Source: Hyphomonas pacifica (GTDB lineage: Bacteria; Pseudomonadota; Alphaproteobacteria; Caulobacterales; Hyphomonadaceae). From it: a stretch of DNA of 64,000 nucleotides. The notes below the pieces were generated by a model. It saw only the letters and a list, made by a program, of their open reading frames with translations, made no database searches and was not told where the DNA came from. The translations under genes were made by a program, and so were the position numbers. The stretch spans positions 1 to 64,000 of the forward strand of contig NZ_AWFA01000009.1 of assembly GCF_000682675.1 (NCBI RefSeq), written 5' to 3'. Below are positions 8,359 through 56,754 of the stretch, piece after piece. The stretch's first letter is position 1, and each line of letters starts with the position of its first letter.

Positions 8359-9633
8359 TCAGGGCATGAGGCTGAGTTCCAGATCAGACGACAAGGCGCG
8401 CAAACGCGCCGATGCCAGTTGCAGCTCCACCCCTGCCCGAAGGCGCGCAATCTGGGCATCGCGATAGGCATTTTCGGCGTCCAGCGCATCCACCAGAGTG
8501 CGCGCGCCGGCATCATATTCCTTGTAGGCGCCTTCCGCCGCCAGGCTCGCCGCAGCTTCTGCGCGGGTCGCAGCCTTCAGAGCCAGACGTCGCGCCTCGA
8601 TATCGCCCCACAGGCTGCTGACGGCTTCCTTCAGCTGAACTTCGGCCACGCGAACGCCTGCGGTCGCTGCGCTGCGCCCTGCCCGCGCCTCACGCGCGCT
8701 CGCGGATTTGAGGCCGCTGGTATAGAGCGGCACCTCGACCGAAACGAACGCGCCGACATCACTGATCGGGTCTTCAAAGAAGAAATAGATGTCCTCGCCC
8801 GTCGTCGCCCGTGCCTTGAGGGAGACTTTCGGACCGAACCGGCTGCGTGCTTCCTGAACGCGCTTGTCGGCGGAGGCCTCACTGGCGCGCGCGGCGGCGA
8901 GGTCAGGATTGGTCTCCAGTACATGGGCCAGCGATTGCTGAAAGTCTGTCGGCATCTCCCCCGGCAGCGCGACCGGATGGGCCGGGCTTGGCTTGTCCAG
9001 GCCGGTCAGGCGAGCCAGCCGGGCCTCCGCTGCGGCCAAAGCGGCGCGGTAGCCTTCCTGCTGTGCCTCAGCCGAGGCGAGGCGCGACTGGGTAAGCGCG
9101 ATATCTGTACGCGTGACGAGGCCCTGATTGAACTGCGCCTCTGTCTGTTGCAAGCGGAGACGGAAGGTCTCGACCTGTTGACGGGCAACGGCAAGTTCCT
9201 GGTCCGCCAGCCAGGCACGGGCATATGCGTCGAACGTGTTGAGCACCGTCTGCTCTCGCGCGCTGAGCAATTGCGCGGCGGCGGCTTCACGCTGCGCACG
9301 GGCCGCGTCGATCGCCGCAGCATTGGCGCCGGAGGTAAAGACCGGCCATTCCGCCTGCAGACCAATCTGGCGCGGCACCTGGGAGATGCGGTCAGTCGTG
9401 AAGTCTGTCTCAAGCGCGCCGACCTGGGCCTGAAGACCTGCCGTGGGACCGGTCTTGGCGCGTGCAACGTCTAGACCGGCTTCACTGCGCTCCATCCCGG
9501 CAGAGGCCTGATCGAGCGAGGGGTCATATTGCAGGGCAGCCTCAAGGGCCTGCTGCAGGGAGACAGACTCAGCCGCCGCCAGCGGCGCAAGCGCCATCAG
9601 GCAGGCCCCAGAGAGAAGCGCGCGGAGACTCAT
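8359..9633 (-). CDS. TolC-family outer-membrane efflux protein
   Basis: A 424-residue outer-membrane factor with a signal peptide (MSLRALLSGACLMALAPLAAAES) and the duplicated TolC repeat: SVSLQQALEAALQYDPSLDQA near the start and LAHVLETNPDLAAARASEAS near residue 230. Long alanine/arginine-rich helices follow each, as in TolC trimers that form a channel across the periplasm. No lipobox is present. It is the last gene of the sqr-trxC-DUF2892 operon, overlapping the DUF2892 stop by the four bases ATGA. The probable partners are the RND adaptor and pump encoded divergently at 12099-16371, which lack their own outer-membrane gene. Confidence 0.93.
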   Translation of the reverse strand: MSLRALLSGACLMALAPLAAAESVSLQQALEAALQYDPSLDQASAGMERSEAGLDVARAKTGPTAGLQAQVGALETDFTTDRISQVPRQIGLQAEWPVFTSGANAAAIDAARAQREAAAAQLLSAREQTVLNTFDAYARAWLADQELAVARQQVETFRLRLQQTEAQFNQGLVTRTDIALTQSRLASAEAQQEGYRAALAAAEARLARLTGLDKPSPAHPVALPGEMPTDFQQSLAHVLETNPDLAAARASEASADKRVQEARSRFGPKVSLKARATTGEDIYFFFEDPISDVGAFVSVEVPLYTSGLKSASAREARAGRSAATAGVRVAEVQLKEAVSSLWGDIEARRLALKAATRAEAAASLAAEGAYKEYDAGARTLVDALDAENAYRDAQIARLRAGVELQLASARLRALSSDLELSLMP

Positions 9634-9833
9634 TTGAAAGCGTTACCGGACTTCAGGCCCAGCGCCTTGAAGATCATCGCCGCCGGGCAAAAGCTGGTAA
9701 AGGCAGCCTGGAACAGGTTTAGCCCGACAAAGGCCGTCAGCAGAAACCAGTAAGGCGAAACAAAATAGCCAAGTGCCAGGCTGGCAAGCACCATAAGGCC
9801 GGCAAAGGCAAAAACTGCGCGGTCGATATTCAT
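9630..9833 (-). CDS. DUF2892 membrane protein (YgaP membrane-domain type)
   Basis: A 67-residue protein with two hydrophobic helices separated by a very short turn (about 6-25 and 28-48), ending SFCPAAMIFKALGLKSG. This is the DUF2892 pattern; in E. coli YgaP the same domain anchors a rhodanese domain to the membrane. Here a separate rhodanese is encoded in the divergent operon. A GAAGGAG ribosome-binding site fixes the ATG at 9833. The family is thought to take part in sulfur or persulfide handling at the membrane. It sits between trxC (20-base gap) and the TolC-like gene (four-base overlap). Confidence 0.85.
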   Translation of the reverse strand: MNIDRAVFAFAGLMVLASLALGYFVSPYWFLLTAFVGLNLFQAAFTSFCPAAMIFKALGLKSGNAFK

Positions 9834-9853
9834 GGAAATACTCCTTCCACAGA

Positions 9854-10312
9854 TCAGGCAGACAGCCTGAAGGTTGATTTTATCCAATTGATCAGCCCAT
9901 CCCCGGTTTGCGCGCCGGGCTGTTGAGCGATCTTCTTTGCATCCTTCCAGGCGATCAATGTCGGGATGCCCCGAATACCGAGGCCTGAGGACGCGGACTG
10001 GTTCTGGTCTGAATTCAGCTTGAAGAAGCGCACCTGCCCGGCAAAACGGGTGGCGGCCTCAGCATAGGCCGGGGCCATCATACGGCACGGGCCGCACCAG
10101 GGCGCCCAGACATCCAGCACATAGGCACCGGTATCGCGCGCTTGCAGGCGCGCCAGCATCTTTTCGTCAATATCAACCGGCTGGGGTGTGGCTAGGCTGG
10201 TCTTGCATTTGCCACAGCGCCCGCCGGTCAAAGGCTGGCCGACTGATACGCGGTTCGTTGCGCCGCAATGGACGCAGACCAGCATCCGGGTGTCGACGGA
10301 CGTGTCTGTCAT
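9854..10312 (-). CDS. trxC: Thioredoxin 2 (TrxC) with N-terminal zinc finger
   Basis: A 152-residue thioredoxin. The N-terminal zinc-binding cysteines are C13, C16, C33 and C36 (CVHC and CGKC), and the active site is WCGPC at 72-76, followed by the cis-proline segment GIRGIPTL. This architecture defines TrxC, a cytosolic protein-disulfide reductase often induced by oxidative or sulfur stress. It starts 9 bases after the sqr stop, so it is in the same operon. In this setting it could reduce protein persulfides or the persulfide formed on sulfide oxidation, which is inference from context. Confidence 0.95.
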   Translation of the reverse strand: MTDTSVDTRMLVCVHCGATNRVSVGQPLTGGRCGKCKTSLATPQPVDIDEKMLARLQARDTGAYVLDVWAPWCGPCRMMAPAYAEAATRFAGQVRFFKLNSDQNQSASSGLGIRGIPTLIAWKDAKKIAQQPGAQTGDGLINWIKSTFRLSA

Positions 10313-10321
10313 GAAATGCCT

Positions 10322-11596
10322 CTATGTTTTCAGCTTGTGCGTGTTGATCAGGTTCAGTGCGGCATTCTCGAACACATTGTCAGACTTGCCGGTGCGTACC
10401 TTGCGCAGGAAGTATTTCTCGAAGGCGACCTTTGCCATATGGACCCATCCGCCGGATACGGACCAGTTGACATTGCGCGGCGGAATTTGCGGCTGCGCTA
10501 CAAAGGCCACACCGCCATCCCCAAAGTCAGCGATGCAGATGGCATTCCAGGTCGCCTCATGCGTCGGCTCCTTGCCGCGCAGGATCTCGCCGATGTTTTC
10601 TGCCGTGGCGGTGACCATGGATTCGATCATGAAGCCCGTCTTCGGCACACCGACCGGCACAGGCGTCTTTCCGGGCGGGGCGATGGCTATGCACACGCCG
10701 ATGCCGAAGATTTCCGGGTATTTCGGATTGCGCTGATGCGTATCCGTAATGACGAAGCCCTTCGGGTTTACGAGGCCGTCAATATCGCGCACAGCCGGAA
10801 CGCCGCGGAAGGCCGGCAGCATCATGGAAAATTTCATGGGCAGCTCATGCGTTTGTTTGACAGAGCCATCCTCGTTGACTTCCTCCACGATCATTTGTCC
10901 GGGTTCGATCTTTTTCACGCGGGCATTGGTGATCCATTTGATGTGACGCTCCCGCATCTCGCTTTCAAGCAGGCCCTTGGTGTCGCCTACTCCGTCGAGG
11001 CCAAGATGCCCGATATAGGGCTCTGAAGTGACGAAGGTCATCGGCACCTTGTCACGAAGTTTGCGCTTGCGCAGTTCGGTCTCGATAATCATGGCCGTTT
11101 CATAGGCCGGGCCGAAACAAGACGCGCCCTGCACAGCACCGACGATGACAGGGCCGGGATCTTTGCAAAACTCTTCAAACGCATCGTGGCCCGCTTGGGC
11201 GTGATCTATGTGGCAGACCGACTGGGTGTAGCCGCCATGGGGGCCTAGGCCTTCAATCTCGTCAAAGGCCAGTTCCGGTCCTGTCGCGATCACCAGATAG
11301 TCATAAGGCACGATCTGACCATCCGTCATCAGAATGTTTTTCTCTTCGGGCTGCAGCTTCTCGGCCTTGCCGATCAGCAACTCAACGCCGCGCTGCTTCA
11401 TCGGCTTTTCGAGATCGACCAGAATGTCCTTTCGCTCTCGCCAACCGACCAGGACCCAAGGGTTCGAAGGCACGAATTGGTAATAGGAGGTCTCGTTGAT
11501 ACAGATGACCTCATCTTCCTTGCGCGCCGAATTTCGCACTTCATAGGCTGCGATGACGCCGCCCAACCCCGCCCCCAAAATGACAATCCTGGCCAT
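10322..11596 (-). CDS. sqr: Sulfide:quinone oxidoreductase
   Basis: A 424-residue flavoprotein that should oxidise sulfide and pass electrons to the quinone pool at the membrane surface. The FAD-binding GAGLGG lies at 8-13, ATGPELAFD at about 104-112 and the C-terminal GFMIESM segment near 321. The three redox cysteines of characterised type I enzymes are present at 128, 160 and 354 (SVCH, GASCFG, AICIADFGD), which argues for true SQR over a general NADH dehydrogenase. The ATG at 11596 has AGGGAG ahead of it. It heads an operon with trxC, DUF2892 and a TolC-like gene, and faces the rhodanese operon across 156 bases. Confidence 0.92.
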   Translation of the reverse strand: MARIVILGAGLGGVIAAYEVRNSARKEDEVICINETSYYQFVPSNPWVLVGWRERKDILVDLEKPMKQRGVELLIGKAEKLQPEEKNILMTDGQIVPYDYLVIATGPELAFDEIEGLGPHGGYTQSVCHIDHAQAGHDAFEEFCKDPGPVIVGAVQGASCFGPAYETAMIIETELRKRKLRDKVPMTFVTSEPYIGHLGLDGVGDTKGLLESEMRERHIKWITNARVKKIEPGQMIVEEVNEDGSVKQTHELPMKFSMMLPAFRGVPAVRDIDGLVNPKGFVITDTHQRNPKYPEIFGIGVCIAIAPPGKTPVPVGVPKTGFMIESMVTATAENIGEILRGKEPTHEATWNAICIADFGDGGVAFVAQPQIPPRNVNWSVSGGWVHMAKVAFEKYFLRKVRTGKSDNVFENAALNLINTHKLKT

Positions 11597-11620
11597 GATG
11601 AACTCCCTGGTTCTTTTCTG

Positions 11621-11664
11621 ATACGAATACTTTACTTTATATTCGTATTTTATAAAATGCGCAA
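11621..11664 (-). promoter_or_regulatory. Candidate sqr promoter overlapping two operator-like palindromes
   Basis: Read on the minus strand, TTGCGC (11664-11659) and TATAAA (11641-11636) are separated by exactly 17 bases, as in a sigma-70 promoter for sqr. Inside the spacer lies the perfect 12-base palindrome ATTTTATAAAAT (11647-11658). A second inverted repeat, ATACGAATA/TATTCGTAT (11621-11629 and 11640-11648), straddles the -10. Both are placed where a repressor would block the polymerase. The likely binder is the ArsR-family protein encoded at 16371-16691. Confidence 0.5.
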
Positions 11665-11695
11665 TATGTCGCATAGATGCAAGCGGGGAGTGCTT

Positions 11696-11738
11696 GTATC
11701 TACCCTTAAAGGCGCCTCGTGCGCATACGTATAGATAC
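11696..11738 (+). promoter_or_regulatory. Candidate operator region before the rhodanese operon
   Basis: An inverted pair GTATCTA (11696-11702) and TAGATAC (11732-11738) brackets the region, and the perfect palindrome ATACGTAT lies at 11725-11732. The ATACG element also occurs in the repeat near the sqr -10, which suggests the same regulator binds both sides. I find no convincing -35/-10 pair for the plus strand here. A GGAGG sequence follows just before the rhodanese ATG. Confidence 0.35.
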
Positions 11739-11752
11739 TGGAGGATTGCCCC

Positions 11753-12112
11753 ATGGCCGACGAAAGAGACCTGTCCCCAAACACCGTGTTTGAAGACCTG
11801 AAAGCAGGCCGCATCATTCTGGTGGACGTTCGCGAGCCCGCAGAATTCGCCAATCAGCGCATTCATGGCGCGCTGCTGAACCCGCTATCGACCTTTGAGC
11901 CGAAGGCTGTCCCGACAGACACGGCAAGGCGCGTTGTGTTCCAGTGCGGGTCCGGCAAACGCTCCCGCCAGGCGCTGGAGGCATTCATGGCCGAGACAGG
12001 CGCAGACGCTGCGCATCTGGCTGGTGGAATCGGCGCGTGGAAGCAAGCCGGCCTGCCCTGCGTGCAGATCAATCCCGCGACAGGACAGGTGGAAGATCAT
12101 GGCCGTTACTAA
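11753..12112 (+). CDS. Single-domain rhodanese (sulfurtransferase)
   Basis: A 119-residue rhodanese-like protein. The active-site loop is CGSGKRS with the catalytic Cys at 65, and the CH2A-type segment VDVREPAEFANQRIHGALLNP lies at about 24-44. Such proteins carry a persulfide on the Cys and transfer sulfane sulfur between small thiols, cyanide or proteins. A GGAGG site 8-12 bases ahead supports the ATG at 11753. Next to SQR and a persulfide-sensor-like regulator, its likely job is to handle the sulfane sulfur made by SQR. It overlaps the adaptor gene by 14 bases. Confidence 0.93.
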   Translation: MADERDLSPNTVFEDLKAGRIILVDVREPAEFANQRIHGALLNPLSTFEPKAVPTDTARRVVFQCGSGKRSRQALEAFMAETGADAAHLAGGIGAWKQAGLPCVQINPATGQVEDHGRY

Positions 12113-13082
12113 AGCATTCCTGACCGCCACAGCTTTGACGCTGCTGTCTGGTATGGCGGCAGGGCAGACGCTGGAAGTCGAGACATCGACCGTAATGGAT
12201 TACCGCCCGGTCGTTGCCCGGATTGAAGCTGGCGACACCGCCACCGCGCGCTCCCGCCTGCAAGGCGTGGTCAGCCGCCTGACCATTGATGAGGGTGATG
12301 TCGTCTCCGCCAGCCAGGTGGTTGCCGTCGTGACCGATGGCACACTGGCCCCTCAACTGGCGGCCCTTTCCTCCCGCATCCAGGGACTTGAGGCCCAGAT
12401 CCGTCAGGCCGAAGAAGACCTTGCCCGCAATGAAGCCCTGTTCAAGGAAGGCTTCTTCCCGAAGGCACGCCTGGATGAGCAGCGTACCGGGCTGGACGTG
12501 TTGAAGCGTACCCTGTCTTCGGCACAATCGGAACGCCGTGCCCTGTCGGCCCGTCAGGCCGAAGGCCAGATCCGCGCGCCGGCAGATTCCCGCGTCACGG
12601 AAGTGAATGTCGTGGAAGGCTCAATCGTATCGCCTGGCGAAGTGATCGCCAGCTTTTCGACGCTGGACGGCATTGTGCGCCTGTCCCTGCCTGAGCGCCA
12701 CGCGGCGCAGATGGCAGAAGGCGAGACCGTCACGCTACGCCTGCCCGCACGCGGCGGCGACCTACAGACAGCCACCATCGTCAAGGTTTATCCTGAGCTG
12801 CGCAATGGCGAGGTAATCGCGGATGCGACTGTACCTGGCGGCCTGAAGGCGCTGGTGGGCGAACGCGTGGACGTGCTGGCACCTGTAGGCGAGCGCCGTG
12901 CGATCCGTGTGCCGAAAGAATATATCTCTACTCGCTATGGCGTGGACTTTGTCCGCGTTCTGGTCGGCGACCGCTTTGTGGAAGCGCCCGTCGCACTGGC
13001 TGCGCCGCTGGCCGACACAGACGGCCAATATGAAATCCTGAGCGGCCTTCGCCCCGGCGACCGTATCGAGAAACCGGAGTGA
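12099..13082 (+). CDS. RND efflux periplasmic adaptor (membrane fusion protein)
   Basis: A 327-residue HlyD/AcrA-type adaptor with a signal peptide (MAVTKAFLTATALTLLSGMAAG) and no lipobox. The lipoyl halves are RLQGVVSRLTIDEGDVVSASQVVA (about 54-77) and the segment IRAPADSRVTEVNVVEGSIV (about 155-174). Between them is a short helical hairpin (about 85-150), followed by a beta-barrel domain. The frame is open further upstream, but the signal peptide and the overlap with the rhodanese gene point to the ATG at 12099. It links the RND pump encoded 4 bases downstream to an outer-membrane channel, probably the TolC-like protein of the divergent operon. Confidence 0.92.
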   Translation: MAVTKAFLTATALTLLSGMAAGQTLEVETSTVMDYRPVVARIEAGDTATARSRLQGVVSRLTIDEGDVVSASQVVAVVTDGTLAPQLAALSSRIQGLEAQIRQAEEDLARNEALFKEGFFPKARLDEQRTGLDVLKRTLSSAQSERRALSARQAEGQIRAPADSRVTEVNVVEGSIVSPGEVIASFSTLDGIVRLSLPERHAAQMAEGETVTLRLPARGGDLQTATIVKVYPELRNGEVIADATVPGGLKALVGERVDVLAPVGERRAIRVPKEYISTRYGVDFVRVLVGDRFVEAPVALAAPLADTDGQYEILSGLRPGDRIEKPE

Positions 13083-13086
13083 TCCG

Positions 13087-16000
13087 ATGAAAGCCGACAT
13101 TTCAGGCTCCATCACGCGCGCGACGATCCGCTCGCCTCTGACGCCGCTCTTCCTGCTGACCGCGCTGGCGGTAGGGCTGATCGCCCTGCTGACCATTCCG
13201 CGTGAGGAGGAACCGCAAATCTCCGTTCCGATGGTGGACATCATGGTCTCCGCACCCGGCCTGCAGGCACCCGATGTAGTGGAGCAGGTGTCCAAGCCGC
13301 TGGAAGAGATCGTCATGGCGATCCCAGATGTAGAGCATGTCTACTCCCAAAGCCGGGATGATGGCGCGATGGTCACGGCCCGATTCGATGTCGGTACGGA
13401 TGCGGATGACGCCATCCTGCGTATCCACGAGAAGATCCGCGCTAATATGGACCGCATTCCGTCCGGCGTACCAATGCCGCTGGTCGTCGGCCGGGGCATT
13501 AATGACGTCCCGATCGTGACGCTGACCCTGTCGCCTGAGGACTGGACCGGGGATCTCTGGAACGACACCAGCCTGCGCATGCTGGCGGATGAGTTGCAAA
13601 AGGAATTGATCAAGGTGCCGGATGTCGGGCTGACCTCACTGGTTGGCGGACGCGATCTGGTGATGCGTGTGGAGCCGGATATTCAGGCGCTGGCTTCCTA
13701 TGGCGTGCCGCTTCAGACGCTGGTCGCCTCTGTCGGACAGGCTGCCTCGGCGCTGCCGGTTGGCACCGCGCGGCAGGATGGCAATTCGCTGCTTGTGCAG
13801 GCCGGGGACCGGATGGACTCGCTGGCAGAACTGGAGAAGCTGGAAATCAGCGGCGCGAACGGACGCACGGTCTATCTGTCCGATGTCGCGACGGTGACGG
13901 TAGATGGCGCGGAAACGGAATCGCGTGTCTGGACGCTGGAACATCATGCGGGCGACGATGCCTTTGTCGCGCGGCCCGCTGTGACGCTGGCGCTGGCCAA
14001 GCGGCCCGGCGCAAATGCGGTGAAAGTGGCCGAGGCCATTCTGGCGCGGGTCGACACGCTGAAGGGGCAACTGATCCCAGAGGGTGTGCGTGTGGACGTG
14101 ACCCGCGACTATGGCGAGACGGCCAATCACAAGGCCAATGAACTCTTGTTCCATCTCGGGCTGGCGACGGTCTCCATCGTTGTGCTGATCGCCTTCGCCA
14201 TTGGCTGGCGCGAGGCGCTGGTGACGCTGATCGTGATCCCGACGACGATCCTGCTGACGCTGTTTGCGTCGCTGATGATGGGCTATACGATCAACCGCGT
14301 ATCTCTTTTCGCGCTGATCTTCTCCATCGGTATCCTGGTCGACGATGCCATTGTGATGATCGAGAACATTGCCCGGCACTGGGCGATGCGCGACGGACGC
14401 ACACGCATTCAGGCCGCCATTGATGCGGTCTCCGAAGTGGGCAACCCGACCATCATTGCCACAATGACCGTGATCGCCGCCCTGTTGCCGATGATGTTCG
14501 TCTCCGGACTGATGGGGCCCTATATGGCGCCGATCCCAGCGAATGCGTCGGCGGCGATGGTTTTCTCTTTCTTTGTCGCCGTGGGCATAGCGCCCTGGCT
14601 GATCATGAAGATTGCCGGACGAGCCAAACTGGCCGGACATGGCGATGAGGGCGGAGACGGCGCTGCGCATGGCGAAAACCGCCTGGGTGGTTTCTATCGC
14701 CGCATTGCGACGCCGGTCGTATCCTCCAAGCGCAATGCGTGGACTTTTCTGATCATTGTGGGTGTGACGACGCTGTCATCGCTTAGCCTGTTCTATTTCA
14801 AACTGGTGCCGGTCAAGCTGCTGCCGTTCGACAACAAATCCGAAATCCAGGTGGTTGTGGACCTGCCGGAAGGCGCAACGGTTGAGGACACCGAACGGTC
14901 CCTGTTCGCACTGGCCGATGCGATGCGAGATGTCGAGGAAGTCGAGTCCGTGCAGGCCTATGCGGGCACGGCTGCGCCGTTCAATTTCAATGGCCTGGTG
15001 CGCCACTATTTCATGCGCAACAGCCCGGAGCTGGGCGACCTGCAGGTGAATTTGTCCGAGAAGTCTCACCGTAAGCGGGCGAGTCATGACATCGCTCTGG
15101 ACCTGCGTCAGCGCCTACTGGCCGTACCGATGCCGGAGGGCTCAAGCGTGAAAGTGGTTGAAGTGCCACCAGGGCCACCGGTGATCGCGACGCTGATGGC
15201 CGAGATCTATGGCCCGACACCGGAAGCACGACGCGAGACGGCGGCCATTGTCCGCAGCTTCTTCGAGGAGACGGATTTCATCGTTGATGTGGACGATTCG
15301 ATTGGCGACCCGGCCCCACGTATGACGGTTTCCGTGAATGAGCCGAGTGCGGCGGATTATGGTATCGCCCAGCAGGACATTCTGGACACGATCGGCCTGG
15401 CCTTTGGCGGGCAGATTGTGGGCGTCTCTCCGCGCGGTGAAGGCCGCGATCCGCTGGACATTCAAGTGAAGCTGCCCAAGGCCGAACGCAACTGGTCTCA
15501 GGAGTTTGCCGCCATCCCGGTGCCGCGACGTCCGCTGGGGACGGGCCAGACGCCTGTGGAACTGGGCGCGCTGGTAGACGTATCGGAAGAGATGGGATCC
15601 CCAGTCATCTTCCGCCGTGACGGCTATTTCGCAGACATGGTGATGGGCGAACTTGCCGGGCGCTATGAGGCTCCGATCTATGGCATGTTCGAAATCCAGG
15701 ACAAGGTTAAGGCCTATGACTGGGCCGCGGCAGGCCTGAAACAGCCCGCCATCCGCATGTATGGCCAACCTGACAATGAAGCCGAAACCACACTGTTGTG
15801 GGATGGTGAATGGGAGATCACCTATGTCACCTTCCGCGACATGGGGCTCGCCTTCGGCGTTGCGCTGTTCGGCATCTATATTCTGGTAGTCGGCCAGTTC
15901 GGAACCTTCCGCGTGCCGTTGATCATTCTGACGCCTGTGCCCCTGACCCTGATCGGCATCATGATCGGTCACTGGCTGTTCGGGGCCCCCTTTACGGCAA

Positions 16001-16371
16001 CCTCCATGATCGGCTTTATCGCCCTCGCCGGGATTATTGTGCGCAACTCCATCCTGCTGGTGGATTTCGTGCGCCACCGGACCGACGACCACACACCGCT
16101 GAAGGATGTGCTGCTGGATGCAGGCGCGATTCGCTTCAAGCCGATCCTTCTGACGGCGCTGGCCGCCATGATCGGCGCAGCGGTGATCCTGAGCGATCCG
16201 ATCTTTCAGGGACTGGCGATTTCACTGCTGTTCGGGCTTGCGTCTTCAACAGCTCTGACTGTTTTGGTCATTCCTGCGATCTATATAGCCTTGAGGGGCC
16301 CGGACTGGATTCCGGCTGATAAAAACAAAACGCGGGCCATAGAGCCTGATACACAGGAGGTACCCAGCTGA
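13087..16371 (+). CDS. RND efflux pump, inner-membrane permease
   Basis: A 1094-residue RND transporter with the family's first helix near residues 20-40, a large periplasmic domain, helices 2-6 from about 340, a second periplasmic loop and helices 8-12 near the end. The helix-4 proton-relay aspartates are D419 and D420 (GILVDDAIVMIEN). In helix 10, where AcrB has a lysine, this protein has Arg986 (GIIVRNSILLVDF). It should use the proton gradient to export a substrate through the adaptor and a TolC channel. The substrate is unknown; the neighbours suggest a sulfur compound or a product of sulfide stress. Its stop overlaps the ArsR gene start (TGATG). Confidence 0.93.
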   Translation: MKADISGSITRATIRSPLTPLFLLTALAVGLIALLTIPREEEPQISVPMVDIMVSAPGLQAPDVVEQVSKPLEEIVMAIPDVEHVYSQSRDDGAMVTARFDVGTDADDAILRIHEKIRANMDRIPSGVPMPLVVGRGINDVPIVTLTLSPEDWTGDLWNDTSLRMLADELQKELIKVPDVGLTSLVGGRDLVMRVEPDIQALASYGVPLQTLVASVGQAASALPVGTARQDGNSLLVQAGDRMDSLAELEKLEISGANGRTVYLSDVATVTVDGAETESRVWTLEHHAGDDAFVARPAVTLALAKRPGANAVKVAEAILARVDTLKGQLIPEGVRVDVTRDYGETANHKANELLFHLGLATVSIVVLIAFAIGWREALVTLIVIPTTILLTLFASLMMGYTINRVSLFALIFSIGILVDDAIVMIENIARHWAMRDGRTRIQAAIDAVSEVGNPTIIATMTVIAALLPMMFVSGLMGPYMAPIPANASAAMVFSFFVAVGIAPWLIMKIAGRAKLAGHGDEGGDGAAHGENRLGGFYRRIATPVVSSKRNAWTFLIIVGVTTLSSLSLFYFKLVPVKLLPFDNKSEIQVVVDLPEGATVEDTERSLFALADAMRDVEEVESVQAYAGTAAPFNFNGLVRHYFMRNSPELGDLQVNLSEKSHRKRASHDIALDLRQRLLAVPMPEGSSVKVVEVPPGPPVIATLMAEIYGPTPEARRETAAIVRSFFEETDFIVDVDDSIGDPAPRMTVSVNEPSAADYGIAQQDILDTIGLAFGGQIVGVSPRGEGRDPLDIQVKLPKAERNWSQEFAAIPVPRRPLGTGQTPVELGALVDVSEEMGSPVIFRRDGYFADMVMGELAGRYEAPIYGMFEIQDKVKAYDWAAAGLKQPAIRMYGQPDNEAETTLLWDGEWEITYVTFRDMGLAFGVALFGIYILVVGQFGTFRVPLIILTPVPLTLIGIMIGHWLFGAPFTATSMIGFIALAGIIVRNSILLVDFVRHRTDDHTPLKDVLLDAGAIRFKPILLTALAAMIGAAVILSDPIFQGLAISLLFGLASSTALTVLVIPAIYIALRGPDWIPADKNKTRAIEPDTQEVPS

Positions 16372-16691
16372 TGCCAGCAGGCCACCAAATGAAAAGTGTT
16401 GATGCGTTAGAGCTGATGTCCGAGCGCATCCATGAAGCCTCTGAAGTGCTGAAGGCGATGGCGAGCGACACGCGCCTGAAGATCATGTGTGCCCTTAGCG
16501 ACGGGGAACTGGCCGTGAACCAGCTGGCCGAGATGACCGGGCAGTCGCAATCGGCCGTCTCGCAGCACCTGGCCAAGCTGCGCGCGGCAGGCTTGGTGGA
16601 GAGCCGCCGGGACGCCCAAACGATTTACTATCGTTGCAGTGGCGGCATTGGCGAAGCTCTGGTAAACACATTGTGTAACTTCTATCGCTGA
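16371..16691 (+). CDS. ArsR-family regulator with BigR/SqrR/YgaV-like cysteine pair
   Basis: A 106-residue winged-helix repressor. The DNA-binding helix is in QSQSAVSQHLAKLRAAGLVESRR (about 58-80), with YYR of the wing after it. Cys40 (KIMCALSDGE) and Cys102 (NTLCNFYR) match in position the pair that forms a tetrasulfide bridge in the persulfide sensors SqrR and BigR; a further Cys is at 89. There is no metal-site ELCVCDL motif as in ArsR or SmtB. AGGAGG 10 bases ahead supports the ATG at 16371; 16389 is an alternative. Last in the rhodanese-RND operon, it probably represses both divergent operons and is released by persulfides. Confidence 0.88.
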   Translation: MPAGHQMKSVDALELMSERIHEASEVLKAMASDTRLKIMCALSDGELAVNQLAEMTGQSQSAVSQHLAKLRAAGLVESRRDAQTIYYRCSGGIGEALVNTLCNFYR

Positions 16692-16777
16692 CGCAATCGG
16701 ACTTACCCGGCTGCGCGGCGGATGATTTTGGTCGGACGTGATGAATAGTCAGAATCGCGTCCCGGCATGATTTGGAC

Positions 16778-17839
16778 ATGGCGCAGGAACTGAACCAGGC
16801 ATATTTCGAGCTACACCAGATTGAGCCCATCCTTTCCTGGGCGGAAAAATCAGGTGTGGACATTGACGCCATTCTTGCCCGGCTGGGCATCAATGCGGCC
16901 GGGCGCACAAATCAGCCGCAAACCCGTGTCAGAATTGTCGACTATTACCGCATCCAGCGCGAGATCGCTCGCCTTATGGATGATTTGACCGCGCAGCTTT
17001 CAGAGCGCAAATTGCTCTACCAGACCGGCCCTTTCGTGGTGACGCAGATGCGCTCTGCCGTCACTCTTATGGATGCCATCCGCAGCTTAGCCTCTCACTT
17101 CAACATGATGCATGGTGGCAATTACAATAACATCCGCCAGAATGAGACAACGCTGACCCTGGTGGTGGATGATGCGAGCTTCCCCTACCGCTTCCGCGAT
17201 GACAGCGCCCTTACCCATTTCATTGGCGATGCCCTGCTCATCAAGACGCAGTGCCTGCTAGAGAGCATTTCCAATGGCACGGCCGGGCGCGCGCTGAAAC
17301 GAGTTGTTCTGAAGCGCGACCGGCAGGAATCCGGCAAGGAGCATCTGCGGTTCTGGCAAGTGCCGATCAGCTACGGCCACTCTGCCTACGAACTGGTTTA
17401 TGACATCGATGTCGCGTGCAAGCCCATTACCCCTGCCAGTGACGTGGATCTGACGACGGATGGGCTGTTCGACCGGGTGATCCAGTATCTGGAACAACTG
17501 TCGCCCACGGTCGATACGCGCTCCTATACAGCCCGGACGGAAGACCTGATTGCCGACGGTTATGAAACCCAACAGGCCGCCGCGAGCCAGTTGGGCATCA
17601 GCGTGGCCACTTATCGCCGCCGTCTGAGTGAAGAGAATACGAGCTTTCGAGACATTCTTCAGGAATCCCGTGCGCGGCGAGCGGGCCGGATGCTGGCACA
17701 AGGGGAAAGCGTCGCCCAGGTATCGGAAAAGCTCGGCTATTCCGATGTACGCGCCTTCACCCGCGCTTTCAAGAAATCGCGGGGCCTTTCCCCGGCCGCC
17801 TTTATGAAAAAGAGCGACCAACCTGTTACTGCGAAATAA
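16778..17839 (+). CDS. AraC-family transcriptional regulator
   Basis: A 353-residue regulator. The N-terminal ~200 residues look like the arabinose-binding-type domain of AraC regulators (ILSWAEKSGVDIDAILARLGI at the start). The C-terminal ~100 residues have the two AraC helix-turn-helices: AASQLGISVATYRRRLSEENTSF and VSEKLGYSDVRAFTRAFKKSRGLSP. The ATG at 16778 is preferred over a TTG two codons earlier. It is followed on the same strand by the TonB receptor, MFS and hydrolase genes and probably controls them in response to their substrate. Confidence 0.9.
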   Translation: MAQELNQAYFELHQIEPILSWAEKSGVDIDAILARLGINAAGRTNQPQTRVRIVDYYRIQREIARLMDDLTAQLSERKLLYQTGPFVVTQMRSAVTLMDAIRSLASHFNMMHGGNYNNIRQNETTLTLVVDDASFPYRFRDDSALTHFIGDALLIKTQCLLESISNGTAGRALKRVVLKRDRQESGKEHLRFWQVPISYGHSAYELVYDIDVACKPITPASDVDLTTDGLFDRVIQYLEQLSPTVDTRSYTARTEDLIADGYETQQAAASQLGISVATYRRRLSEENTSFRDILQESRARRAGRMLAQGESVAQVSEKLGYSDVRAFTRAFKKSRGLSPAAFMKKSDQPVTAK

Positions 17840-17960
17840 CACGTGAGCGAAAATGTTCACTCCGCCTGAGCCGTCGGGTCATCGCCTGCCGGGGCGGTTT
17901 CCAGCAATACTCCCCCCATAATGCCACACATATGTGGCCATAAATCCGTGGGAGGATAAA

Positions 17961-20255
17961 TTGAGACATCATCGCTTCAATACACTCAAGCTCGGCCTGG
18001 TTTCCGCCATTGCTCTAACCACGGGGCAATATATGGCCCATGCGCAGGACGATTCCGGCGAGCAGGAAGAAGCCCGTACGCTGGGGCGCGTGACGGTTAC
18101 GGCGCAACGCCGGGAAGAAGACCTGATCGACGTACCACTGTCGGTTTCCGCTTTTGACTCCGCTCAGCTGGAAGCCACCGGCGCAGTCGACATCACATCC
18201 ATCCAGCGCTCCACCCCGAACGCCACGATCGAAGTGGCACGCGGCTCGAACTCCACGCTGATCGCATTCATTCGCGGCGTCGGTCAGCAAGACCCACTCT
18301 GGGGTTTTGAGCCTGGCGTTGGCCTCTATGTGGACGACGTCTATATTGCCCGTCCGCAAGGCGCGATTCTAGACATCTTCGACATTGACCGCATCGAGGT
18401 TTTGCGCGGACCGCAAGGCACTCTCTATGGCCGCAACACGATTGGCGGCGCGATCAAATACGTCACTAAGAAAATGAGTGACGAGCCCGAACTGAAGGCG
18501 AAAGTGAATTTCGGCTCTTACAGCCAGCTCGACACGATCGTTTCCGGCTCAACCCCGATTGGCGATCAGTTTGCGATTGGCGGCGCCATCGCCAGCTATC
18601 AGCGCGACGGCTATGGCAAGAACCTCTTCACCGGCGCAGAACATTATGACAAGGATGTGCTGGCCTATCGCGTAAGCGCAGAATGGCAGCCGACCAGCGA
18701 TTTTTTCGTGCGCCTTGCCTATGACAAGTCGCAGGATGACTCCAATGCAAAGCACGGCCACCGCCTGTTGCCGAGCGCTGACGGAACCCTGCCGGTTACG
18801 GACAATGTCTATGACACGCACGGCGGCGCAGGCGACGACAACTCGGTCGAGACCGAAGGCTACTCCCTGACCGCGGAATGGGACGTCAATGACGCGGTCA
18901 CGCTGAAATCCATCACGGCCTATCGTGAGGGGCACACCGTAACGCCGATTGACTTTGATGCCCTGCCACAGCCGGACTTCGACGTTCCTGCCTATTATAA
19001 TGATGACCAGTTCAGCCAGGAATTCCAGATGCTGTACAATGGCGCCCGCTTCTCCGGCGTCGCGGGCATCTACTATCTCGACGGCAGCGCAGATGGCGCA
19101 TTCGACCTGCTGCTTTCCAGCCTGGGCGTCACAGTGTTCCAGGGCGGCAAGCAGGACAAGGAGAATTTCTCCCTCTACGGAGACTTTACCTATGATCTGA
19201 CAGACCGCTTTAGCGTGTCTCTTGGTGGGCGCTATACCAAGGATGAGACAACGGCAGATGTAACTCGTGAACTCTGGCTGGGGCTCGGCTCCGGCTCCTT
19301 CGATACGGATAACCAGACCTCCCTGTTCCTGGCGACCCAGACTGGATATACCGGCCTGAACAGAGAAGATGAAGAATTCACGCCGCGCATCTCCATCTCC
19401 TACAAGGCGACTGACGACATCAATCTGTATGCGACCTATGCACAGGGATTCAAGGCTGGCGGCTTTGACCCGCGTGCCCGGGCAGACCTTGACCCTCTCG
19501 GCCTTTCACAGGAAGGCTTCGGCCCGGAAAAGGTCGACAGTTATGAGATCGGGCTGAAGGGTAATTTCTTCGACAACCGTCTGCAGCTGAACACAGCCGC
19601 CTTCTATGCCGAATATACCGATCAGCAAATCACGGTACAAAGCGGCGCGGACTCCGATAATGACGGCATCAATGATACCTTCGTGTCGTCTGTCTTCAAC
19701 GCTGGCTCCTCCGAGTACAAGGGCCTGGAAATCGAGGGCAGCTGGTTCATCAGCGACGAGTTTACCCTGATGGGCAACCTTGGCTACATCGATGCCGAAA
19801 TCAAGGAGATCATCTCGGCGGGCGTGAACATTGCAGACCAGTTCGTGACGCAAAACACGCCGGAACTACAGGGCCAGCTATCGCTGAATTATATGAAGGA
19901 TTTCGGACCGGATTTCGGCGCCCTGTCCATCACGGGATCAGCCTCCTATCGTGACGAGTACTATCTCTTCAACGTGCCGAATGAAGGATTTGATCCGGGC
20001 ACAAATGTTATCTTCCCGCTCGGCGGACCTGCCCTGGACCCGGATTCCTATACACTGCTGGATCTGAGCCTTGTCTGGACTTCACCTTCCGAGAAACTGA
20101 AATTCGGCATCCATGGCCGAAATTTGACGGACGAGGAATACCGTGTCGCCGCGTATAACTTCGTCACGCCAAGCCAATTAGGGGCAGACAGCGCCTATTC
20201 CGCTTTCTACGGGCCGCCGCGCACTGTGACGGCCTCGATCTCATACGAGTTCTGA
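17961..20255 (+). CDS. TonB-dependent outer-membrane receptor
   Basis: A receptor of about 764 residues with a signal peptide (RHHRFNTLKLGLVSAIALTT...AHA), a TonB-box-like RVTVTAQRRE just after it, a plug domain with VGLYVDDVYIARPQG and VLRGPQGTLYGRNTIGGAI (about 115-165), and a 22-strand-type barrel ending in aromatic VTASISYEF. I place the start at TTG 17961 because GGAGG lies at 17951-17955 and the signal peptide follows at once; a GTG at 17934 is the alternative. It imports a substrate too large or rare for porins. A 10-base palindrome CACATATGTG sits at 17927-17936 upstream. The substrate is not evident; no siderophore genes are nearby. Confidence 0.93.
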   Translation: MRHHRFNTLKLGLVSAIALTTGQYMAHAQDDSGEQEEARTLGRVTVTAQRREEDLIDVPLSVSAFDSAQLEATGAVDITSIQRSTPNATIEVARGSNSTLIAFIRGVGQQDPLWGFEPGVGLYVDDVYIARPQGAILDIFDIDRIEVLRGPQGTLYGRNTIGGAIKYVTKKMSDEPELKAKVNFGSYSQLDTIVSGSTPIGDQFAIGGAIASYQRDGYGKNLFTGAEHYDKDVLAYRVSAEWQPTSDFFVRLAYDKSQDDSNAKHGHRLLPSADGTLPVTDNVYDTHGGAGDDNSVETEGYSLTAEWDVNDAVTLKSITAYREGHTVTPIDFDALPQPDFDVPAYYNDDQFSQEFQMLYNGARFSGVAGIYYLDGSADGAFDLLLSSLGVTVFQGGKQDKENFSLYGDFTYDLTDRFSVSLGGRYTKDETTADVTRELWLGLGSGSFDTDNQTSLFLATQTGYTGLNREDEEFTPRISISYKATDDINLYATYAQGFKAGGFDPRARADLDPLGLSQEGFGPEKVDSYEIGLKGNFFDNRLQLNTAAFYAEYTDQQITVQSGADSDNDGINDTFVSSVFNAGSSEYKGLEIEGSWFISDEFTLMGNLGYIDAEIKEIISAGVNIADQFVTQNTPELQGQLSLNYMKDFGPDFGALSITGSASYRDEYYLFNVPNEGFDPGTNVIFPLGGPALDPDSYTLLDLSLVWTSPSEKLKFGIHGRNLTDEEYRVAAYNFVTPSQLGADSAYSAFYGPPRTVTASISYEF

Positions 20256-53619: not shown

Positions 53620-56600
53620 ATGGCAAAATTCTTCATTGATCGCCCGGTATTTGCTTGGGTGATTGCGATCCTCATCATGCTGGCAGGCGGCCTGGCCCTG
53701 CGAACGCTTCCGGTTGCACAGTACCCAGATGTTGCCCCGACCACGATCAGCATCATGGGCAACTATCCGGGCGCATCGGCCAAAGCGGTGGAAAACTCTG
53801 TCACGCAGGTAATCGAGCAACAGCTGACCGGTCTTGACGGGCTCGACTACATCACCTCCACCAGCAGCTCGAACGGCTCTGCCACGATCAACCTCTCCTT
53901 CAAGCCGGGCACCAATCCGGATATTGCGCAGGTTCAGGTCCAGAACAAACTGTCTCTCGCAACACCTTTCCTTCCCGAACAGGTGCAGCGGCAAGGCGTG
54001 ACGGTCAGCAAGGCCAGTAACGGCTTCCTGCTGATTACCGCGCTGTACTCTCCGAACGGAACATATGACCAGACCGATCTGGGGGATTATGTCCGCTCCA
54101 ATATCTACGACACTGTCAGTCGCCTCAATGGTGTAGGCCGGGTTGAGGCATTCGGATCACGCTATGCCATGCGCGTCTGGCTGGAACCTGAAAAGCTGGT
54201 CCAGTACAAGCTGATGCCCTCTGACATCGTAAATGCGATCAAGGCACAGAATGCGCAGATTTCAGCAGGCTCCCTCGGCGGCGCGCCGTCAGTCGAAGGC
54301 CAGGAAATCAACGTCACCATCACCCTGCAATCCCTTCTCTCGACACCGGAAGAGTTCCGCAACCTTCTTATCCGAACGACTCCCGAAGGCGGCTCTGTCC
54401 GTCTTGAGGATGTTGCCAAGGTTGAGATGGGCGCAGAGAACTACGAGTTCATCTCGAAATATAACGGCATGCCCTCAACCGGTTTTGCCGTATCCCTTGC
54501 GACCGGCGCCAACGCACTCGACACGGCCGAGTTGGTGAAGAAGACGGTCGAAGGGATGTCCAAAGACTTTCCAGACGACATTGAATATGCCTTTCCGGTG
54601 GACTCCACTCCCTTCATCGAAACGTCCATTCACGAGGTTCAGAAGACCCTGTTTGAGGCCATCTTCCTAGTCTTCATTGTGATCCTGGTCTTCCTGCAAA
54701 GCTTCCGCGCCTCCTTCATCCCGATCATTGCTGTGCCTGTCGTGCTGCTTGGCACATTTGCCGTGCTGCTGGTCATGGGCATGTCCATCAACACACTGAC
54801 CATGTTCGCCATGGTGCTCGCCATCGGCCTTCTGGTGGATGACGCGATTGTTGTTGTGGAGAACGTCGAGCGCGTGATGCATGATGAGAAATTGCCACCG
54901 CGTGAGGCAACGATCCGTTCCATGGAACAGATCGTCGGCGCCCTTGTCGGCATCGCAGTTGTTCTGTCTGCTGTATTCGTGCCCATGGCCTTCTTCCCGG
55001 GCTCTGCGGGCATCATCTATCGCCAGTTCTCGGTGACCATCGTATCTGCCATGGCGCTATCCGTGCTGATCGCGATTGTGCTGTCCCCGGCGCTCTGCGC
55101 GACCATCCTGAAGCCAAAGGATCACTCGAAAAGCTCCTGGCTGGGCAAACCGGCCGAAGTCTTCAATACCGGCTTTGACAAGCTGACCGTCGGCTATGAA
55201 GCTGTGGTGAACCGCATCCTTAGACGGCGCCTGATCATGGTTGGCGTCTTCGCCATCATTGTCGCGCTGACGGGCCTTGCATTCACCCGCATCCCCAGCT
55301 CCTTCCTTCCTGACGAAGACCAGGGCAACTACTTTACCCTTGCCCAATTGCCGGCAAATGCCAGCCTTGAGCGCACCATGTCCGTCATGGATGAAGTCGT
55401 TGACTATTATCAGACGGAAGAAGGTGACAACGTTAAAGGTATATTCTCTCTCGCAGGCTTCAGCTTCGCCGGTCAGGGCCAAAATAACGGTATCGCCTTT
55501 GCCTCCCTGAAAGACTGGTCTGAGCGCCCCGGCAAGGAAAACTCCGTGCAGGCTATTGTCGGCCGCGCCATGGGGGAACTCTCCCAGATCGACCGGGCGC
55601 AGGTTTTTGCAATTTCCCCGCCCGCCATCCGCGAACTGGGCAATGCCAGCGGGTTTGACCTGTTCATTCAGAACACAGGTAACCTGTCCCATGAAGAGTT
55701 TGTGGGTGCCCGCAACCAATTGCTCGGTATGGCCGCCCAGGATCCGCGCCTTGCAGGTGTGCGCCCGAATGGCGTAGAAGATGGCCCACAATTTAATCTG
55801 AAATTGGATTACCAGAAGGCCCAGGCTCTCGGCGTGTCTGTCTCTGATGCGACGAGCCTGATGTCCACCATGTTCGGCGGCCTCTATGTAAATGACTTTA
55901 TCGACCGTGGCCGGATCAAGCGCGTCTATATTCAGGGCGATGCGAACGACCGCATGCAGCCGGAAGACATTTCCAACTGGTTTGTGAGAACCAGTTCCAA
56001 CGAAATGGCTCCGCTTGACGAGATGATTACCAGTGACTGGATCATTGGTTCACCTCAACTGCAGCGCTTCAACGGCATCTCCGCCCTGAACCTTCAAGGC
56101 TCCGCCGCACCTGGCCTGAGTTCAGGTGGTGCCATGGAGGCCATGGAAGAACTTATCGGTCAGCTACCGCCTGGCATCTCCTATGAGTGGAGCGGACTCA
56201 GCCGTCAGGAACGCCAGTCAGGCAACCAGGCAACCACCCTGTACGTCATCTCCATCCTGTTTGTGTTCCTCTGCCTTGCTGCCCTGTATGAAAGCTGGAC
56301 CATTCCGGTTTCCGTTCTGCTGGTTGCCCCGCTGGGTGTGGCTGGTGCTGTAGCAGGCGCAACATTTGGTGGATTTGCAAATGACGTCTTCTTCCAGGTA
56401 GGCCTTCTCACCACGGTCGGCCTTGCCTCCAAAAACGCCATCCTGATTGTCGAGTTTGCCCGCAACCTTGAGAATGAAGGCAAGGAACTGGTGGAAGCGA
56501 CGATCGAAGCCGTCCGTCTGCGTATCCGACCGGTTCTGATGACATCCTTCGCCTTTGCCTTTGGTGTGTTGCCTCTGGCACTCAGCAGTGGCGCAGGAGC

Positions 56601-56754
56601 TGCTGGTAGAAACGCCATCGGCACAATCGTGCTTGGCGGTGTGATCGCGGCCATGACCTTCAGCCTGCTTTTCGCTCCGCTCTTCTATGTTCTGGTGCGT
56701 AAACTGACTTCTCGTACCCCCAAACATGGCGACACAGCCGGAGACCCAGCATGA
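53620..56754 (+). CDS. RND multidrug efflux pump, AcrB-like (HAE1)
   Basis: A 1044-residue pump, the normal length of AcrB/MexB. The N-terminus MAKFFIDRPVFAWVIAI and the early ALRTLPVAQYPDVAPTTISI are diagnostic of HAE1 proteins. The helix-4 proton relay DD is in GLLVDDAIVVVENVERVM, and the helix-10 lysine is present in GLASKNAILIVEF. It exports hydrophobic or amphiphilic drugs with proton antiport. It starts 18 bases after the adaptor stop and overlaps the outer-membrane gene by ATGA. Confidence 0.96.
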   Translation: MAKFFIDRPVFAWVIAILIMLAGGLALRTLPVAQYPDVAPTTISIMGNYPGASAKAVENSVTQVIEQQLTGLDGLDYITSTSSSNGSATINLSFKPGTNPDIAQVQVQNKLSLATPFLPEQVQRQGVTVSKASNGFLLITALYSPNGTYDQTDLGDYVRSNIYDTVSRLNGVGRVEAFGSRYAMRVWLEPEKLVQYKLMPSDIVNAIKAQNAQISAGSLGGAPSVEGQEINVTITLQSLLSTPEEFRNLLIRTTPEGGSVRLEDVAKVEMGAENYEFISKYNGMPSTGFAVSLATGANALDTAELVKKTVEGMSKDFPDDIEYAFPVDSTPFIETSIHEVQKTLFEAIFLVFIVILVFLQSFRASFIPIIAVPVVLLGTFAVLLVMGMSINTLTMFAMVLAIGLLVDDAIVVVENVERVMHDEKLPPREATIRSMEQIVGALVGIAVVLSAVFVPMAFFPGSAGIIYRQFSVTIVSAMALSVLIAIVLSPALCATILKPKDHSKSSWLGKPAEVFNTGFDKLTVGYEAVVNRILRRRLIMVGVFAIIVALTGLAFTRIPSSFLPDEDQGNYFTLAQLPANASLERTMSVMDEVVDYYQTEEGDNVKGIFSLAGFSFAGQGQNNGIAFASLKDWSERPGKENSVQAIVGRAMGELSQIDRAQVFAISPPAIRELGNASGFDLFIQNTGNLSHEEFVGARNQLLGMAAQDPRLAGVRPNGVEDGPQFNLKLDYQKAQALGVSVSDATSLMSTMFGGLYVNDFIDRGRIKRVYIQGDANDRMQPEDISNWFVRTSSNEMAPLDEMITSDWIIGSPQLQRFNGISALNLQGSAAPGLSSGGAMEAMEELIGQLPPGISYEWSGLSRQERQSGNQATTLYVISILFVFLCLAALYESWTIPVSVLLVAPLGVAGAVAGATFGGFANDVFFQVGLLTTVGLASKNAILIVEFARNLENEGKELVEATIEAVRLRIRPVLMTSFAFAFGVLPLALSSGAGAAGRNAIGTIVLGGVIAAMTFSLLFAPLFYVLVRKLTSRTPKHGDTAGDPA

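Follow-up and report, generated by a model that had tools for sequence, protein, structure and literature searches.

In Azospira suillum PS, an operon reported in 2017 (Dsui_3440-3443) encodes a sulfide:quinone oxidoreductase (SQR), an RND pump, a membrane fusion protein (MFP) and a protein of unknown function; it was flagged by barcode sequencing (Bar-seq) and showed high expression in the presence of H2S, and expression of a DUF2892 gene located elsewhere rose about 10-fold (PMC5358917). In Allochromatium grown on pyrite, an RND/CzcA-family component set was up (PMC11267869). We examined a comparable arrangement in a 64,000-nucleotide stretch of the genome of Hyphomonas pacifica (Alphaproteobacteria, family Hyphomonadaceae; contig NZ_AWFA01000009.1, positions 1 to 64,000 of the forward strand), called the window below. 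Between positions 8359 and 16691, two divergent operons combine sqr with genes for a thioredoxin, a DUF2892 protein, a rhodanese, an ArsR-family regulator and the complete tripartite set of an RND pump, namely permease, adaptor and outer-membrane factor. The module of SQR, sensor and pump proved to be a real one: it is conserved, mobile and sometimes plasmid-borne.

The A. suillum operon resembles the window in uniting SQR, RND pump and MFP in one unit, with a DUF2892 gene induced as well. It differs in being a single operon; the text of the report at hand mentions neither arsR nor rhodanese, and its RND protein, Dsui_3441, is a possible member of the subfamily of the window pump. The persulfide-sensing ArsR regulators SqrR, BigR, YgaV, HlyU and sHdrR share with the window ArsR the fold, the first cysteine (Cys41 of SqrR, Cys40 here) and sqr and rhodanese neighbours. 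SqrR controls sqr and a rhodanese (PMC9995734), and a 2025 survey describes SqrR/BigR-type regulators that also adjoin RND pumps (PMC12423496). YgaV and YgaP are treated in PMC9774250 and PMC4730233, and SoxR in PMC10451225. Escherichia coli ygaVP likewise couples an ArsR regulator, a rhodanese and a YgaP-type membrane domain, whereas the window encodes rhodanese and membrane domain by two genes, one in each operon, and adds SQR, thioredoxin and pump; no frame with both domains was present among the loci searched. BigR-dioxygenase operons such as Xylella bigR/blh have the sensor family and the presumed signal in common with the window cluster, which differs in containing no dioxygenase; a set of that kind lies on another contig of the same genome. 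The components and the bare SQR-RND association are thus already known, while no description of how broad the association is, of the pump subfamily or of the displaced sensor cysteine reported below was found in the open PMC full texts searched.

Association of the pump with sulfur genes

The initial annotation had viewed the two operons as a probable sulfide/persulfide detoxification system coupled to a pump of its own and had called for a search of other genomes for the RND-SQR pair. We counted as pump orthologues all sequences at least 62% identical to the window pump (the next among the matches listed reached at most 34%), and as SQR the window type at E 1e-30, the only SQR type sought. 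Among 105 genomes of the family, 52 carried the pump (one orthologue being a 230-residue fragment and one broken) and 53 the SQR. Both were present in 51 genomes and neither in another 51; one genome had the pump only, on a cut contig, and two fragmented genomes had SQR only, so that the two states agreed in 102 of 105 and SQR accompanied the pump in 51 of the 52 pump-bearing genomes. In 50 of the 51 pairs, the two genes lay on one contig, 1170-1825 bases apart. Since these genomes are related, the p value of the family co-occurrence is not a count of independent events. An even draw of 172 genomes across the class, reduced to 171 by exclusion of our own, gave pump and SQR together in 6, pump only in 6, SQR only in 2 and neither in 157 (p 7.6e-7). 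In one genome of the same genus (G063, C3:1308068-1311279), the pump orthologue is split over two frames with stops and SQR is retained.

The wider subfamily was assessed from 159 test loci, consisting of the best 80 of 172 from a scan with the pump sequence and 79 hand-picked over identity bands among the matches listed; removal of 3 near-duplicates left 156. Locus L189, a 1-kb placeholder, was not used. At least two of the four genes sqr, rhodanese, DUF2892 and arsR lay within 7 kb of the pump in 102 of these loci, and at least one in 121, by profiles that were seeded from the test loci and may favour them. None of the four was found within 7 kb of any of 20 paralogous RND control loci, each taken from a different pump-bearing family genome and representing only about 5 RND lineages in the tree; paralogous RND sites in two genomes (G074 and G075) that adjoin the sulfur-pump module were not used as controls. 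Homologues of this pump therefore occur mostly with sulfur genes, whereas the initial annotation had named the opposite, homologues mostly without them, as its refutation; the sulfur-linked unit that it proposed is supported. Judged from the co-occurrence and control counts, the arrangement is far beyond chance. By identity to the window pump, the share of loci with at least two of the four genes was 27/28 (at least 68%), 50/70 (52-68%), 14/45 (40-52%) and 11/13 (33-40%), and that of loci with SQR was 27/28, 33/70, 5/45 and 7/13 in the same bands.

Gene order varies between lineages, and much the same gene set persists. Six loci of one distant lineage (L179-L184, 35-37% RND identity) have the genes in a single direction, in the order arsR-tolC-adaptor-RND-DUF2892-rhodanese(s)-sqr. 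In a FastTree phylogeny of the pumps, rooted on the controls, most deep branches include sulfur-linked loci, and at least 16 transitions are needed between presence of some of the four genes and absence of all. This pattern suggests an old association that was lost repeatedly, although losses and gains are indistinguishable in such a tree. The cluster often provides the outer-membrane factor, though not in every case. The earlier description of a tripartite pump split between the operons is correct for the window and does not hold as a general rule, for tolC lay within 7 kb of the pump in only 14 of 28 close relatives (11 of 13 in the most distant band). Across the somewhat larger set L179-L185 and L188, arsR-tolC-adaptor-RND-DUF2892-rhodanese(s) form one run that is mostly followed by sqr, with DUF302, carboxymuconolactone-decarboxylase-like and Crp-like genes recurring in the vicinity.

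Copies of the module were also found on plasmids. A tblastn search of 72,556 plasmid records yielded 51 with a pump match, and three of the 15 listed were examined. On pISP1 of Sphingomonas sp. MM-1, typed as conjugative, TolC-DUF2892-SQR diverges from rhodanese-adaptor-RND-ArsR without trxC, and SQR and pump are 64% and 61% identical to those of the window. Variants of the module are present on an Asticcacaulis plasmid (SQR 66% identical to the window) and on p2 of Azospirillum brasilense (SQR 61%). Cytochrome bd oxidase genes adjoin the module on pISP1 (L224:14192-17064).

The two operons and their sulfur-handling proteins

Open reading frames and Pfam and NCBIfam profiles, which also bear out the family assignments, reproduced the gene content, strands and spacings first described for both operons. 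On the minus strand, sqr (10322-11596) is followed by trxC (9854-10312) after 9 bases, by the DUF2892 gene (9630-9833) after a further gap of 20, and by tolC (8359-9633) with an overlap of 4 bases. On the plus strand, the rhodanese gene (11753-12112) overlaps the adaptor gene (12099-13082) by 14 bases; the permease gene (13087-16371) starts after a gap of 4 and overlaps arsR (16371-16691) by 1. The longest reading frame of sqr opens at 11866; homology begins only at the ATG at 11596, and this start leaves a divergent gap of 156 bp (11597-11752). The host genome measures 3.42 Mb, and the pump of Hyphomonas beringensis shares 98% identity with the window pump.

The 424-residue product of sqr (Pyr_redox_2) matched solved SQR chains over its full length with 487 bits (3sz0 and others, which we take to be Acidithiobacillus SQR). 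Its Cys128, Cys160 and Cys354, presumably the catalytic cysteines, did not vary among the 76 homologues found in the collected loci. Full-length homology and the three cysteines identify it as an SQR with the corresponding predicted activity. The single-domain rhodanese (119 residues, PF00581 1.4e-12) has the active-site loop CGSGKRS, and its active-site Cys65 was conserved in 100% of 90 neighbouring rhodaneses. The YgaP-like DUF2892 membrane protein (67 residues, PF11127 YgaP-like_TM 5.3e-12) has a conserved FCP cysteine, Cys49, which was retained in 99% of 106 neighbouring homologues. The TrxC-like thioredoxin (PF00085 7.9e-24; Zn_ribbon_Thio2 below cutoff) shows N-terminal CxxC pairs and WCGPC in its translation. 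Among the pump parts, the TolC-family outer-membrane factor (424 residues) matched Pfam OEP at 1.2e-54 and TIGR01844 with 200 bits, under the cutoff of 225; the periplasmic adaptor (327 residues, HlyD/RND_mfp) exceeded the TIGR01730 cutoff (116.8 against 94.9 bits); and the permease (1094 residues, ACR_tran 1e-147) belongs to an unnamed sulfur-linked subfamily.

The regulator, its probable operator and persulfide dioxygenase

The 106-residue regulator (ArsR helix-turn-helix; Cys40, Cys89 and Cys102) had as its nearest solved relatives by sequence HlyU, SqrR, NolR, YgaV and BigR, in line with the BigR/SqrR/YgaV type assigned at the outset, and by sequence it is nearer to HlyU and SqrR than to the metal sensors SmtB and CzrA. 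Its AlphaFold2 (AF2) model, with a mean predicted local distance difference test score (pLDDT) of 86.6, fitted SqrR (6o8k) with Z 15.4 and a root-mean-square deviation of 1.4 over 92 aligned residues at 44% identity. The fold alone hardly separates it from metal sensors (Z 15.4-15.6 for HlyU and SqrR against 14.4 for CzrA, the latter at 24% identity). Cys40 aligns with SqrR Cys41, and a cysteine was found at this position in 95% of 111 neighbouring regulators. The second cysteine differs from that of SqrR. Residues 15-106 of the model align to SqrR 16-107, so that Cys102 corresponds to residue 103 of SqrR and lies one helical turn ahead of its Cys107, a position that has no cysteine in the window protein. 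Measured from a conserved tyrosine, the second cysteine has an offset of 15, against 19 at the usual place. It took the shifted place in 45 of the 111 neighbouring regulators, including 27 of 27 from the closest loci, and the usual place in 60; 2 had it elsewhere and 4 had none. A cysteine at position 40 together with one in the C-terminal stretch was present in 103 of the 111. On the NCBIfam BigR equivalog NF040642 the window protein scored 70.2 bits, under the cutoff of 155. We regard it as SqrR/BigR-like, and by analogy with SqrR, BigR and YgaV it may leave DNA upon exposure to polysulfide.

The divergent gap contains a 22-bp palindrome, TTCGTATTTTATAAAATGCGCA (11642-11663), which is a probable operator of both operons. 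Of 28 divergent gaps collected, 23 entered a motif search (5 were too long and were omitted), in which it ranked as the best palindrome; 12 of the 23 scored at least 20 bits, by a margin that is inflated because the motif shuffles ignore the relatedness of the gaps. None of 100 shuffled versions of the window contained a match to the palindrome, and its 18-bp core has a single occurrence in the 3.42-Mb genome when up to one mismatch is allowed. A promoter-like TTTACT-N16-TAAAAT on the plus strand (11631-11658) overlaps the palindrome and is weak; the consensus scan found 2 such matches in the region against 2.7 expected, no better than chance.

The initial annotation had noted that no persulfide dioxygenase (PDO) was present and had taken export as an alternative way to clear sulfane sulfur. 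Its observation stands for the cluster, in which none of the eight genes is a PDO by Pfam, and fails for the genome. A metallo-beta-lactamase-fold protein on a separate contig (C19:28401-29291) matched the dioxygenase portion of the two-function Blh model with 410 bits (whole-protein cutoff 625) and is by homology a predicted PDO. Its gene diverges from genes for an ArsR regulator, a rhodanese and a TauE-family protein (L214:7999-10409). The ArsR of this locus has both cysteines, the second at the usual place, and its rhodanese carries a C-terminal hydrophobic segment as read from the sequence. Since the palindrome core occurs only once, this locus has no second copy of that quality within one mismatch. 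Of the family genomes, 46 of the 52 with the pump and 39 of the 53 without it had PDO (Fisher p 0.08), a direction opposite to export in place of PDO, and export as a general substitute was therefore rejected. Some few species may still use export in this way, for at E 1e-60 PDO was missing from 6 of the 52 pump-bearing genomes, of which three (G047, G062 and G070) are 99% complete. With these possible exceptions, the presence of PDO in our own and in most pump-bearing genomes makes the pump an addition to PDO and not its replacement.

What the pump may export

Our leading guess, held tentatively, is that the cluster is a mobile, sulfide- and persulfide-responsive detoxification module that exports excess zero-valent sulfur; we infer its regulation, direction of transport and substrate. 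ArsR would repress both operons through the palindrome. When sulfide is oxidised to sulfane sulfur, Cys40 and Cys102 (perhaps Cys89) of the repressor would become bridged, as in SqrR, BigR and YgaV, and ArsR would leave the DNA. SQR, recognised by homology, would oxidise sulfide at the membrane and pass the electrons to quinone, producing zero-valent sulfur as polysulfide, S0 or a small-thiol persulfide, which the rhodanese, the DUF2892 protein and the thioredoxin could relay or reduce. Excess sulfur left in the periplasm or in the outer leaflet of the inner membrane would be expelled through adaptor, RND permease and TolC, and cytoplasmic persulfide would be converted to sulfite by the separate ArsR-PDO-rhodanese-TauE locus, whose gene content we observed and whose role is predicted.

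Several results weigh against sulfur export. RND pumps are thought to take up their substrates from the periplasm or the membrane, and both the rhodanese and the thioredoxin look cytoplasmic. Only 5 of 45 loci in the 40-52% identity band had SQR, half of the pump-bearing genomes in the class sample (6 of 12) were without the window SQR type, and an RND clade of 12 loci, about 45% identical to the window pump, had none of the four sulfur-associated genes. Deletion of the whole A. suillum operon left the rate of H2S oxidation unchanged (PMC5358917). None of the computations names a substrate for the pump. Absence of cysteine from the pump, considered as a sign of a reactive-sulfur substrate, was given no weight because 4 of 11 RND pumps of our own genome are cysteine-free, the window pump included (a contig end truncates one of the 11). 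Cysteine-free pumps made up 27/27 full-length sequences in the closest group and 42/70, 18/33 and 7/13 in the further groups, against 0/12 full-length controls (1/20 with partial matches) and 0/12 in the clade without sulfur genes. In the open PMC full texts searched, a scope outside which most subscription papers and supplements lie, we found no experiment on whether an RND pump transports sulfane sulfur.

Two further observations concern pump sequences. An Arg-His loop motif was dropped as a substrate hint, as it fails to track sulfur linkage: it was present in 25/27, 66/69, 8/33 and 0/13 of pump groups A, B, C and D, in 0/12 controls and in 11/12 of the clade without sulfur genes. The pumps of that clade (L144-L154 and L158) have a mean of 4.2 cysteines, and two neighbour families without a Pfam match recur beside them.

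Second to sulfur export, and less probable, ranks a sulfur-induced general pump: a multidrug or envelope-stress pump under a sulfane-sulfur sensor, expelling organic poisons (quinone-thiol adducts, electrophiles or lipids) that arise from sulfide-blocked respiration or adduct formation, and not sulfur itself. The permease lies under every NCBIfam cutoff, yet it scored nearer to drug-type than to metal-type models, with 400.6 bits on its best model, NF033617 (cutoff 1250), against 256.7 bits on the heavy-metal CusA/CzcA model TIGR00914 (cutoff 701). Some relatives retain arsR and pump without SQR, and MarR-family regulators tied to antibiotic resistance have been reported as sulfane sulfur sensors (PMC11211675, PMC8614764). 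However, a general pump fits poorly with the persistent linkage to sqr, rhodanese and DUF2892, and with a pump that travels with SQR on plasmids.

Export of metal ions, or of metal-sulfide complexes that arise during sulfide stress, we consider improbable; the authors of the A. suillum study suggested such export for its H2S-induced RND pumps (PMC5358917). The AF2 model of the permease (pLDDT 82) matched AdeB, AcrB and CusA alike, with Z 44-47 and 19-22% identity in fold alignments, and it fitted CusA (Z 44.4-45.1) as well as AcrB. By this model the window pump is a normal RND protein, of a fold that does not separate drug from metal pumps; with AcrAB-TolC and MexAB-OprM it shares fold and three-part anatomy, and it differs from them in its low identity and in belonging to a sulfur-linked subfamily. 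Against metal export speak the low score of the permease on the CusA/CzcA model, that of the adaptor on the CzcB model (86 bits, cutoff 319) and the sequence of the ArsR regulator, whose fold is, as noted, hardly informative here.

Slightly more doubtful still is a cyanide or thiocyanate module, in which the rhodanese would make thiocyanate for export by the YgaP-like protein and the pump. E. coli YgaP, a rhodanese fused to the same membrane domain, has been proposed as a thiocyanate exporter (PMC4730233); its in vivo substrates are elsewhere called unknown (PMC9774250), and such a module leaves the conserved SQR and the SqrR-like sensor unexplained. Least probable and already disfavoured is that the pump is a mere neighbour unrelated to sulfur, a reading that gains something from loci without any of the four genes, namely the 12-locus clade and, at 52-68% identity, 10 of 70 (8 of 58 when only those with full flanks are counted), and that is opposed by near-perfect co-occurrence and adjacency in the family, by much the same gene set in differing orders in distant lineages and by the empty paralogue controls.

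A broader proposal can be made, which we consider rather unlikely: that the task of a widespread RND-TolC subfamily is to export zero-valent sulfur, and that it is the missing exit route for SQR-made polysulfide or S0 from Gram-negative cells, borne on a plasmid-mobile unit. In Hyphomonas and its relatives, the switch would be a persulfide sensor with the second cysteine displaced by one helical turn. To our knowledge, the route by which SQR-made zero-valent sulfur leaves the cell, for example to extracellular globules, is not settled. A pump subfamily travelling with SQR and a persulfide-type sensor provides a concrete, deletable candidate for it, and it offers a natural substrate class for RND pumps that are annotated merely as efflux RND permeases. 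The regulator variant provides a test of how two sensing cysteines may be placed.

Outside the cluster, an AraC-type regulator gene followed by one for a TonB-dependent receptor lies just downstream of the module (16772-20255). Two more RND permeases are encoded in the window, at 53620-56700 on the plus strand and from 61697 to the window end on the minus strand, among 11 RND matches genome-wide.

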